Positions 22,957 to 43,748 of a stretch of DNA of 64,000 nt are shown piece after piece. Both the position numbers and the translations under genes were made by a program. Source of the DNA: Candidatus Sumerlaeota bacterium (lineage in GTDB: Bacteria; Sumerlaeota; Sumerlaeia; MWCT01; JAUWMI01); contig JAUWMI010000015.1 in NCBI GenBank assembly GCA_030613245.1, positions 1 to 64,000 on the forward strand, in the 5' to 3' direction. The notes under the pieces were generated by a model, which did no database searches, was not told where the DNA came from, and saw only the letters and a list, made by a program, of their open reading frames with translations. Numbering within the stretch: the stretch's first letter is position 1; every line of letters begins with the position of its first letter.

Positions 22957-23042
22957 TTATTGAGATTTGTATAAATAACGGTAGAGCATGTAGGGGCGTT
23001 TAATTAAACGCCTCTACAAAACTATACGTGGCATCCGCCCAG
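22957..23042. repeat. leader repeat with TTTAATTAAA palindrome, copy 1
   Basis: ATTGAGATTTGTATA, ATAACGGTA and AGCATG precede the palindrome at 22989-23018, and CGTGGCATCCGCC follows. All of these blocks recur in order at 33980-34095. Both copies lie just upstream of minus-strand genes (ROK kinase here, MoxR there). Read on the minus strand, TATACAAAT could serve as a -10 region, but no good -35 is seen. Confidence 0.8.
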
Positions 23043-23054
23043 GCGGATGATTCT

Positions 23055-23185
23055 ACACGGGCAAGTTGAAAATGCGCCTGTGGTGTGATGCCCGTGCCAC
23101 GTTGAATGGCACAGTTGAAGGCCAAGCATTCGCACAAAAATAAGGCCTTCAGCGGCTTTGGCTGTTTCTTTATTTATGCGAAAAG
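23055..23185. repeat. CACGGGCA hairpin and MITE-like TTCGCA element
   Basis: A hairpin with CACGGGCA / TGCCCGTG arms spans 23055-23098. Next to it (about 23129-23184) is a short element with ends TTCGCACAAAAATAA and TTATTTATGCGAA that are inverted copies of one another. The latter end is shared with the repeats at 34247-34333 and 35110-35485. The 324-bp space before the phosphatase gene holds nothing else. Confidence 0.6.
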
Positions 23186-23268
23186 CAATAAAATTACTGC
23201 TAAGCAAATGGTCACGCACGATTTTGTATAAACGCATCAGTGCGCAGAAAAAATAGAAAGGCAAAGCG

Positions 23269-33965: not shown

Positions 33966-33979
33966 ACGTCTCCGCTCCT

Positions 33980-34095
33980 ATTGAGATTTGTATAGATAAC
34001 GGTACAGCATGTAGGGGCGTTTAATTAAACGCCCCTACAACTACCCACTATGGAATCCCAAGAACCTCTTTTTCTTCTATGCGTGGCATCCGCCT
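33980..34095. repeat. leader repeat with TTTAATTAAA palindrome, copy 2
   Basis: Same ordered blocks as at 22957-23042 (ATTGAGATTTGTATA, ATAACGGTA, the palindrome at 34010-34039, CGTGGCATCCGCC). A further 35 bp includes AATCCCAAGAACC, which is also found at 831-880. It occupies the leader of moxR. Confidence 0.85.
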
Positions 34096-34101
34096 AGATT
34101 A

Positions 34102-34333
34102 ATAAACTTCACGCGCAACTCTTAATTCACCCTCTCCCTATCCCTCCCCCATCAAGGGGGAGGGATATAGTAAATGAACGCTCGCTTTAAGAAATAGACA
34201 AATCAACACTCATCTTAACAAATAACCACACTTATTGATCTTCGCATAAGTTAATGGTAGAATTGAAAGTTCAGCAATCGCGCAGAAATCGGGCTTTCAG
34301 GAACATTGGGCATTACTTTATTTATGCGAAATT
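34102..34333. repeat. DUF559 leader repeat, downstream copy (relic)
   Basis: R1 (34102-34273) and R2 (34274-34333) match the sequence upstream of the DUF559 gene (34913-35141 and 35426-35485). On the minus strand R1 contains a leader, a CCCTCCCCC/GGGGGAGGG hairpin, two 28-bp tandem units (34179-34234) and the TTG start plus the next six codons of a DUF559 gene. Beyond AAT the sequence is unrelated and meets a stop after six more codons, so this is a relic start. R2 ends in TTATGCGAA, inverted relative to TTCGCATAA at 34247. Confidence 0.85.
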
Positions 34334-34404
34334 CGATAAGGAGGAATTTCTTTTTGGCTTTCCCTTCCTTTGATTTCCTTTCTGCCTTTCCCCTTCCCTT
34401 GAAT

Positions 34405-34929
34405 TTATTTCCGATTTTCCCCTTCCTTGGTTTCCTTTGTATCTTTCCCTTTTATTGATTCCCTTTTTACCCTTTCCCCTCCCTTGAATTTATTTCCGCC
34501 CCCCTCCTTGACTTTATTTCTGATTTCCCCCTCACGTGGTTTCCCCTTTACTTTTCCCCCTCCCTTGATGGGAGGGGTTAGGGGAGGGTGATTCAAACAA
34601 CTCCCCATTATCACTTCTAATACCCCTTCTATATTCGCTACCACTTCATTATTCCAAAACCTTAGAACTCTAAAACCTTGCCCTTCAAGCCATTTATCTC
34701 TTTCCTTATCCTTGTCTCTTTCTATGGCATGCTGTCCACCATCTACTTCTATTACTATCTGTTTTTTAAAGCAAACAAAATCCACTATATAATTGCCAAT
34801 GGGCTGTTGTCTCTTAAATTTGAGCCTTTCTAACTGTTTTGCTCGTAAATGCCTCCACAATAAAATCTCTGCATGCGTAGACCTCTTCCTAAGATTCTTG
34901 GCTATTATATTGATAAACTTCACGCGCAA
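34405..34929 (-). CDS. DUF559 domain endonuclease-like protein in repeat cassette
   Basis: A 174-residue protein. Residues about 10-110 are a DUF559 domain of the Vsr-like PD-(D/E)xK nuclease superfamily: AEILLWRHLRAKQLERLKFKRQQPIGNYIVDF, then the catalytic-type VIEVDGGQH (about 57-65) and GFRVLRFWNNEV. The last 60 residues are low complexity (Lys/Gly/Glu/Pro) and are encoded by imperfect repeats of CCTTGAATTTATTTCC-like sequence. The start is TTG at 34927-34929 and lies inside repeat R1. The gene is bracketed by direct copies of R1/R2 and sits between otherwise co-oriented genes of the MoxR set, which suggests a mobile or selfish cassette. Substrate and activity are unknown. Confidence 0.82.
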   Translation of the reverse strand: MRVKFINIIAKNLRKRSTHAEILLWRHLRAKQLERLKFKRQQPIGNYIVDFVCFKKQIVIEVDGGQHAIERDKDKERDKWLEGQGFRVLRFWNNEVVANIEGVLEVIMGSCLNHPPLTPPIKGGGKVKGKPREGEIRNKVKEGGGNKFKGGERVKRESIKGKDTKETKEGENRK

Positions 34930-35141
34930 CTCTTAATTCACCCCCTCCCTAACCCTCCCCCATCAAGGGGGAGGGGATATAGTAAATGAACACTCGTTTT
35001 AAGAAATAGACAAATCAACACTCATTTTAAGACATAACCAGATTAGCACTCGCTTTAAGATATAACCAAATCAACACTCATTTTAACAAATAACCACATT
35101 TATTGATCTCCGCATAAGTTAATGGTAGAATTGAAAGTTCA
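34913..35141. repeat. DUF559 leader repeat R1, upstream copy with 4 tandem units
   Basis: This copy covers the leader and first codons of the DUF559 gene. It contains four tandem 28-bp units starting CACTC (34991-35102), against two in the copy at 34102-34273, and the same CCCTCCCCC hairpin. Confidence 0.85.
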
Positions 35142-35425
35142 CCTTGTGTCCTGTTTTGATTGAAGAATGCCATAGAGAGACTATTCTATATAATCTAAAC
35201 CCAATAATGGCTAATCCATGCGGTCAGGATGTAGGGGCGGGGTTACCCCGCCCATGGGCGGTCCGCCGCGGCGGATCGCCCCTACAAAAACCAACATTCC
35301 AATGAAGTAAAGCAATTCTGCAGCATTTTGGCCAGGCAAAAGTATTAGGAAGGGCGTTAAATGTAACAGCCCTGCAAAAAACAAACAGAACACAACAAAT
35401 CAGATTAGGACACCACTCACGAATC
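35142..35425. mobile_element. ~270-bp insertion with terminal inverted repeats, nested
   Basis: The sequence between R1 and R2 upstream of the DUF559 gene is absent from the downstream R1-R2 copy, where R1 and R2 are contiguous. Near its ends GTGTCCTGTTTTGATT (35146-35161) and AATCAGATTAGGACAC (35398-35413) form a 16-bp inverted repeat with three mismatches. It carries no convincing gene and includes the double palindrome at 35230-35287. I interpret it as a small non-autonomous element. A target duplication is not clear. Confidence 0.5.
35230..35287. repeat. double GTAGGGG palindrome (GGGGTTACCCC and GCCGCGGCGG cores)
   Basis: The outer ends TGTAGGGGC and GCCCCTACA enclose two inner hairpins, one on GGGGTTACCCC and one on GGTCCGCCGCGGCGG. 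This is a compound member of the palindrome family. Confidence 0.8.
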
Positions 35426-35485
35426 GCAATCGCGTAGAAATCGGGCTTTCAGGAACATAGGGCATTACTTTATATATGCGAAATT
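35426..35485. repeat. repeat R2, second copy
   Basis: A 60-bp near-identical copy of 34274-34333 (GCAATCGCG...ATGCGAAATT), 30 bp downstream (on the plus strand) of the stop-proximal end of the coiled-coil gene. Its TATGCGAA end pairs with CCGCATAA at 35111 to give a MITE-like frame around the insertion. Confidence 0.85.
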
Positions 35486-35515
35486 AGACAAAAGCCGCTG
35501 GCAAGCGTATGATGC

Positions 35516-42272: not shown

Positions 42273-42754
42273 CCTCTTACGTTTAACAAAAAAATCGTTC
42301 TCCCCTCATTATATTGGACGCAGAAATACTGCGAAAGAAACACACGCTACGCTAGAGAACATGATCCGAAAAGTCAAAATATAATTAGATATTCCACTGG
42401 CACTTTTTGGCATTCTTGGCGATCTTTAACTGTTAATCAGCCCCAGAGGCTACATCAGGTACAGGAAATGATTGATAGCACATAATAAAAGTAAATGTCA
42501 AACCACGACAGCACGACTTATACTATGTTTAAAATATCGAAATTAGAAAGCTTCGTAGGGGTTCAAAATTTTGAACCCAACAGTCCCGCAATTACGGTGG
42601 AGTACCAGCGCCGCAAAGGGGCTTAATTGTCCCGATAGTATCGTGAAATGGAGTGAGGTGTTATTAGTCGGTATGACTGTCAGGAAAACCTTCTGCAATA
42701 GATCCATCGAATGTCCTTAGGGAGAGTTGATGATTGGTGTGTCAATAGTCTGCT
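42273..42754. other. intergenic region between GATase-like protein and hepT
   Basis: These 482 bp hold one palindrome (42555-42578) and otherwise show no gene or RNA. The promoter of the long minus-strand operon that begins with the gene ending at 42272 must lie at its left end. Confidence 0.5.
42555..42578. repeat. GTAGGGGTTCAAAATTTTGAACCC palindrome, left of hepT
   Basis: GTAGGGGTTCAAAA followed by its inverse TTTTGAACCC. The same core, with the same GCTTC flank, recurs at 43721-43748 on the other side of the MntA/HepT pair. Confidence 0.85.
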
Positions 42755-43706: not shown

Positions 43707-43720
43707 ATTCAATAGGCTTC

Positions 43721-43748
43721 GTAGGGGTTCAAAATTTTGAACCCCTAC
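43721..43748. repeat. GTAGGGGTTCAAAATTTTGAACCCCTAC palindrome, right of mntA
   Basis: A perfect palindrome whose core and GCTTC left flank match 42555-42578. Confidence 0.88.

Follow-up and report, generated by a model that had tools for sequence, protein, structure and literature searches.

BoxC, PIT and triplex repeats have been catalogued since the 1990s in >260 genomes, where they mark unstable loci (PMC4666352). The E. coli motif, TM_ECO, is present in 23 copies, E. coli K-12 carries five inverted TM pairs, and triplex formation in vitro has been shown for the E. coli sequence (PMC4666352). No mobility gene turned up beside BoxC/PIT/TM_ECO repeats in the study by Holder et al. (2015; PMC4666352). 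DUF559 proteins come from another context: a profile study tied YcjD of E. coli to Vsr (PMC1189080), and VsrA of Caulobacter, which has a DUF559 domain, causes DNA damage in cells without a cytosine methyltransferase (PMC12907096).

Here we describe a locus at which the two meet. It lies in a 64-kb stretch of a Candidatus Sumerlaeota bacterium (GCA_030613245.1, contig JAUWMI010000015.1, positions 1-64,000; the window). What is new is DUF559 as a gene tied to the BoxC-type repeat, for which no mover has been known and for which DUF559 may be that mover. No link of DUF559, ycjD, PF04480 or COG2852 to repeats was found in the literature searched, the coverage of which left out preprints and most subscription papers.

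The DUF559 locus and its repeats

The DUF559 (PF04480) gene of the window lies at 34405-34929 on the minus strand and encodes 174 aa from a TTG start, with the domain at 34603-34905. The protein matches PF04480 at E 5.5e-42 and PF18741 weakly, and no other profile. It is the sole stand-alone DUF559 of the genome, the other match being inside a 1671-aa frame, and the GC content of the gene is 37.6% versus 52.1% for the window.

The original prediction described the gene as a cassette bracketed by direct copies of its own leader, and the repetition itself was borne out. R1 (34095-34345, 251 bp) is a second, gene-less leader copy downstream of the gene. R2, the gene leader, consists of a first part (34906-35141), in which the left terminal motif lies together with a 56-bp internal repeat, and a last part (35426-35491) that is 92% identical to positions 180-245 of R1. 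R1 matches 34906-35040 (93%), 35049-35141 (94%) and 35426-35491 (92%), all in the same orientation. Leaving out a 284-bp insertion that splits R2 (35142-35425) and contains a GTAG-type palindrome (35229-35286), the two share 232 identical positions over ~245 bp, with an alignment score of 302 against a best score of 25 in 200 shuffles. As had been noted, the repeat takes in the TTG start (34927-34929) and the next codons, and the downstream copy leads into a dead-end frame (TTGCGCGTGAAGTTTATTAAT...) that is open for 13 codons and then meets TAG. The 284-bp insertion is absent from two continuous copies on other contigs (C38 and C88), and R2 is the disrupted partner because these other copies of the split part are continuous.

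R1 and R2 do not form the ends of the cassette, since the unit common to different phyla stops at two inverted triplex motifs instead. These motifs, which tightly bracket the DUF559 gene, are the true cassette ends. The proposal of a Vsr-like nuclease travelling as a cassette thus found support far beyond the window, with its ends misidentified. From motif to motif, the element (a triplex motif, the DUF559 gene and a second, inverted triplex motif) measures 419 bp, at 34557-34975 on the minus strand. Its left, gene-upstream motif (34941-34975, minus strand; CCCTCCCCC-TTGAT-GGGGGAGGG-TTA-GGGAGGGGG) has the hairpin outside and the mirror third block inside. The right, gene-downstream motif (34557-34588, plus strand; CCCCTCCC-TTGAT-GGGAGGGG-TTA-GGGGAGGG) is inverted relative to the left one, has different letters and overlaps the DUF559 coding sequence; the C-terminal tail of the protein is encoded by this motif (NHPPLTPPIKGGG) plus the repeats beyond it. 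At both ends the three blocks (pyrimidine arm, purine arm and mirror purine block) fit perfectly (8/8), and the loops are short. Judged by sequence, the basis on which we liken DUF559 ends to the E. coli triplex, the element termini carry the BoxC/PIT/TM_ECO intrastrand triplex motif.

A third motif, of the left-end type, lies inside R1 (34130-34164, minus strand) with ~25 nt of the element interior, the TTG among them, coming after it. The 64-kb window has no motif outside this locus, where it is found in the two ends and R1, and the fourth copy in the genome stands alone on another contig as a solo left end (C26:41705-41768). With the motif limited to these places, R1 can be read as a left end with leader but no gene, left by local duplication. 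The suggestion of a decaying element is partly right, in that R1 is a left end without a gene and the C26 copy a solo left end. Asked whether the leader accompanies other DUF559 genes, the check proposed with the original prediction was favourable for the motif part of the leader and not for the remainder of R1/R2. The hairpin pattern was absent from 39 other genomes of the same phylum. A search of Rfam gave nothing at gathering score; a weak whalefall-1 match (E 0.054, well below the cut-off) overlaps the R1 motif. The gene does separate the coiled-coil gene from moxR, as had been described, but it lies on the same strand and is co-oriented with the set it was said to interrupt; for an empty site of the window's own copy, no usable homologue of the coiled-coil neighbour was found in the four genomes of the same order.

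The surroundings are rich in other repeats. Degenerate ~28-bp pyrimidine repeats (34346-34556), with the half-motif sequence CCCTTCCCTTGA inside, adjoin the right end; here and at two further loci (L030, L035) the half-motif is expanded in tandem after the right end and encodes in-frame peptides (SHQGSKEKREY...). R1/R2 is a composite of the triplex motif, the 56-bp repeat and a separate, MITE-like family, a 107-bp repeat with terminal inverted repeats TTATTGATCTTCGCATAA...TTATGCGAAATTCGATAA (34232-34340), which also occurs at C38:25763-25869 and C88:59867-59973 and is ~72% similar to the right end of a ~230-bp family. The latter (TTATTGAGATTTGTATAGATAACGG...ATGCGAAAAGCAATAA) has imperfect terminal inverted repeats and internal GTAG-type palindromes and is found at 22958-23191, 33979-34094, C88:14098, C71:43686, C72:20127, C30:45758 and C17:49017. 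R1 adjoins the left half of one of its copies, exactly in the CCGCCTAGGCGG palindrome of that copy. GTAG-type palindromes (TGTAGGGGCGTTTAATTAAACGCCCCTACA and a GTAGGGGTTCAAAATTTTGAACCC form) are also scattered at 724-858, 22986-23018, 34007-34039, 42550-42578 and 43716-43748.

A single-gene unit in many phyla

A contig search across genomes, mostly metagenome-assembled, yielded 80 DUF559 loci from many phyla. When their DNA was compared all against all, similarity began and ended just outside the two motifs, even across phyla; the window element is 82.7% identical over 434 bp to one from Zixibacteria (L065), and the median unit length is 430 bp. Motifs were present on both sides within 400 nt at 85/122 DUF559 loci and at 0/20 Y1_Tnp genes from overlapping genomes, and within 150 nt at 86/130 DUF559 loci versus 0/329 shifted flank pairs. 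A looser hairpin test was positive on both sides of 51/74 DUF559 loci and 5/546 control ORFs. In a Nitrospirota set picked by the DUF559 profile (HMM) only, 38/53 loci had motifs at both ends, and the pattern is therefore not an artefact of the query. CGTC-tagged repeats were rejected as ends, being present at 2/137 DUF559 genes only.

In about one third of DUF559 loci, one end or both are without the motif. One element has ends of different build (L106), and two DUF559 genes of the window's own phylum have no motif at either end (L110, L114). Together with three genomes that carry 7-11 motif copies and in which no DUF559 was found (G148, G152, G154), these exceptions count against a universal claim, although absences weigh little in a survey of mostly metagenome-assembled genomes. 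In a Nitrospirota subgroup (L159, L160, L168, L172, L142) the terminal motifs have the opposite polarity, with the third block outside and the hairpin inside.

Elements differ greatly in their end sequences (CCCTCTCC, CCCCCTTT, TCCCCTCC...). An end-to-end alignment score of at least 36 was reached by 52% of pairs within an element, 5% of pairs between elements and 0/322 shifted flanks. The third block fits its own stem (at least 7/8) in 88% of cases, the stem of another element in 47% and a shuffled one in 26%. Ends that differ between elements and yet match within one indicate that ends and gene travel together, and both controls argue against mere GC-rich composition.

Several observations point to mobility. 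One Gastranaerophilales genome has two copies (L086, L096) with 91.8% identity over 441 bp and unrelated flanks, along with several solo ends that have the same sequence. In-frame elements reside within priA (L074, L085), ileS (L087, L106), a radical-SAM gene (L090, L094, L108), a helicase gene (L082) and an M14 peptidase gene (L072), the host genes being named by reading translations. The occupied radical-SAM frame has 1000 aa, whereas it has 834-889 aa and is insert-free in most relatives with 88-93% identity, and these empty sites hold no motif pair. In ileS, one gene is occupied (L219) and an 82% identical one is empty (L220); a third (L228) carries a gene-less inverted end pair separated by an 18-nt spacer and placed no more than a few codons from the insertion point in L219. 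This ileS loop, in the order of genome G079 (L219-L248), is an insertion hot spot with a DUF559 element, the BoxC pair of L228, a CGTC-tagged repeat pair (L239) and in-frame sequences that seem unrelated (L225, L226, L233).

No target site duplication was found: direct repeats in the flanks averaged 3.75 nt versus 3.59 nt in mismatched controls, and an 8-bp candidate in L228 (TTTAAGCC) was discarded as anecdotal. The elements thus leave no classical insertion signature. Tandem arrays are enriched beside them (32/260 flanks versus 3/239 controls). R1/R2 fits this enrichment and is a secondary local duplication of this kind. One clear case is an array of leader, gene, leader, gene and leader (the gene being DUF559) with near-identical units and a 656-bp period (L167, 1300-2765), which could be a real amplification or partly an assembly effect. 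DUF559 was present in 45/72,556 plasmid records and 3/50,697 phage records, and with carriage so rare we rejected the view that it is typically a plasmid or phage gene. Taken together, a recurrent single-gene unit bounded by inverted repeats, with empty sites and multiple copies, is well supported.

The nuclease, the motif and what may move them

DUF559 is under purifying selection with its catalytic residues kept: ten pairs, the two copies from one genome (L086/L096) among them, gave dN/dS values of 0.02-0.17, and the residues invariant in 54 sequences include D50, E61, D63 and H67. Predicted at pLDDT 88, the structure matches those of NGO0050 (3HRL), the I-Bth0305I catalytic domain (3R3P) and Vsr (1VSR), and the closest functionally characterised fold is that of the homing endonuclease I-Bth0305I. 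The fold, the profile link to Vsr and the activity of VsrA make it likely that the window protein is a nuclease, and the substrate that we propose for it below is a putative one.

Nitrospirota genomes with DUF559 had a mean of 3.97 motif copies versus 1.12 in those without (p=6e-4; reversed pattern as control, p=0.37). Motif number tracks DUF559 presence only loosely. One complete motif lies ~170 nt downstream of E. coli ycjD, within a 51-bp stretch that is found at a median of 4 places per E. coli genome. At one locus (L115, 8408-8761 and downstream), the 3' end of ycjD is partially duplicated behind the gene, where a BoxC motif also lies. We rejected ycjD as a clean empty-site test because ycjD-less strains carry eefRABC(D) between sapF and fabI (PMC12817139), where the two are alternatives.

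DUF559 is probably the only gene carried by a ~430-bp mobile element with intrastrand-triplex terminal inverted repeats, and its presumed nuclease activity would mobilise the BoxC-type ends much as RAYTs mobilise REPs. The Vsr-like nuclease may recognise the hairpin or triplex form of single-stranded ends, for instance during replication, and nick beside them, and the bounded DNA could then be copied to, or joined at, other sites with no target duplication. Whole elements, gene-less end pairs and solo ends could all serve as substrates. Ends would then build up as REP-like repeats, with solo motifs as DUF559 products, and cut ends could give local duplications such as R1/R2. The nuclease is our best candidate for the enzyme that spreads the BoxC/triplex repeat. 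We lean somewhat towards the broader view that the DUF559 family is a further repeat-mobilising nuclease, with a Vsr/homing-endonuclease fold and triplex-forming ends as its substrate, and the source of BoxC/PIT-type repeats including those of E. coli.

DUF559 might instead be a homing endonuclease that parasitises existing BoxC pairs: it would cut a gene-less pair and be copied in by repair on the motif homology arms, the motifs having spread otherwise. The kinship of its fold with I-Bth0305I, the gene-less inverted pairs in ileS (L228) and in E. coli K-12, and the in-frame position within essential genes, which recalls intein and HEG habitats, all speak for such a parasite. We consider it unlikely, since the radical-SAM empty sites lack a motif pair, most sites differ between genomes and the matching of ends within elements shows ends and gene travelling together. 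Alternatively, a host or other transposase could move the element, with DUF559 as cargo or as a host-beneficial repair nuclease for triplex DNA; triplex motifs are tied to genome instability by themselves (PMC4666352), and RAYTs are present in many of these genomes. This is improbable in our view: no gene besides DUF559 is common to the elements, and none of the 20 Y1_Tnp loci has a motif nearby. Y1_Tnp was, moreover, not found in the motif-rich genomes G065, G074, G076 and G147, and the repeats of these genomes are therefore not explained by RAYTs.

We give hardly any credence to an ordinary gene whose strong hairpins act as terminator or attenuator, with R1/R2 as a chance local duplication and no mobility. 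Hairpins are common near gene ends, and R1/R2 alone could come from replication slippage, but hairpins on both sides are as rare among control ORFs as reported above, the element boundary is common to different phyla, and the empty sites in relatives (for elements inside genes) and the copy pairs contradict this reading. Should BoxC/PIT repeats indeed be DUF559 element ends, we would know where an entire class of bacterial repeats comes from, a widespread domain of unknown function would gain a testable job, and a new enzyme fold would join those that mobilise small palindromic DNA. In-frame protein segments such as PPLTPPLKGG or SPSPPARGEG would then be readable as element ends.

Comparison with known systems

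BoxC/PIT/TM_ECO repeats share with the DUF559 ends the three-block structure, the TTA second loop and GGGAGAGGGTTAGGGTGAGG-type sequence, and both occur solo and as inverted pairs. They differ in that BoxC/PIT/TM_ECO were described as intergenic repeats without a mobility gene (PMC4666352), whereas in the present case they form the ends of DUF559 elements. NGO0050 (3HRL) and YcjD belong to the same protein family; BoxC-type termini are unreported for them in the literature searched, and the ends of ycjD are degraded.

I-Bth0305I (3R3P) and Vsr (1VSR) have the same predicted fold as DUF559, with the catalytic residues conserved, and Vsr-like homing endonucleases are likewise small, selfish-looking and located inside essential genes. 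In contrast to these, the DUF559 element brings its own terminal inverted repeats and is thus neither a repeat-free free-standing gene nor one housed in an intron or intein, none of which was recognised around the elements (intein motifs were judged by eye in the inserts); nor do its sites have a target sequence in common. Insertion sequences and MITEs resemble it in having one gene between terminal inverted repeats and gene-less derivatives. Unlike them, the DUF559 element has triplex-motif ends and neither a recognised transposase (DDE, HUH, serine or tyrosine) nor a target duplication.

The likeness is most extensive with REPtrons, the REP/RAYT systems (PMC2817692, PMC3733652). In both, inverted hairpin-with-tag repeats flank one small nuclease gene, the system is chromosomal, the gene is low and the repeat higher in copy number, target duplication is lacking and repeats sometimes lie in frame within genes; inverted hairpin repeats on both sides and dispersed copies were found here as well. 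The enzymes differ, DUF559 being a Vsr/PD-(D/E)XK-type nuclease and RAYT an HUH tyrosine transposase, and so do the tags, which are the mirror third strand of the triplex in the DUF559 element and GTAG in REP. The window protein is not an HUH/Y1 transposase (PF01797), and its brackets are not GTAG-tagged REPs; even a loose GTAG tag within 200 nt accompanied only 20/137 DUF559 genes. Failing the test that defines RAYTs, the DUF559 element is not a member of the REPtrons, though it works like one.
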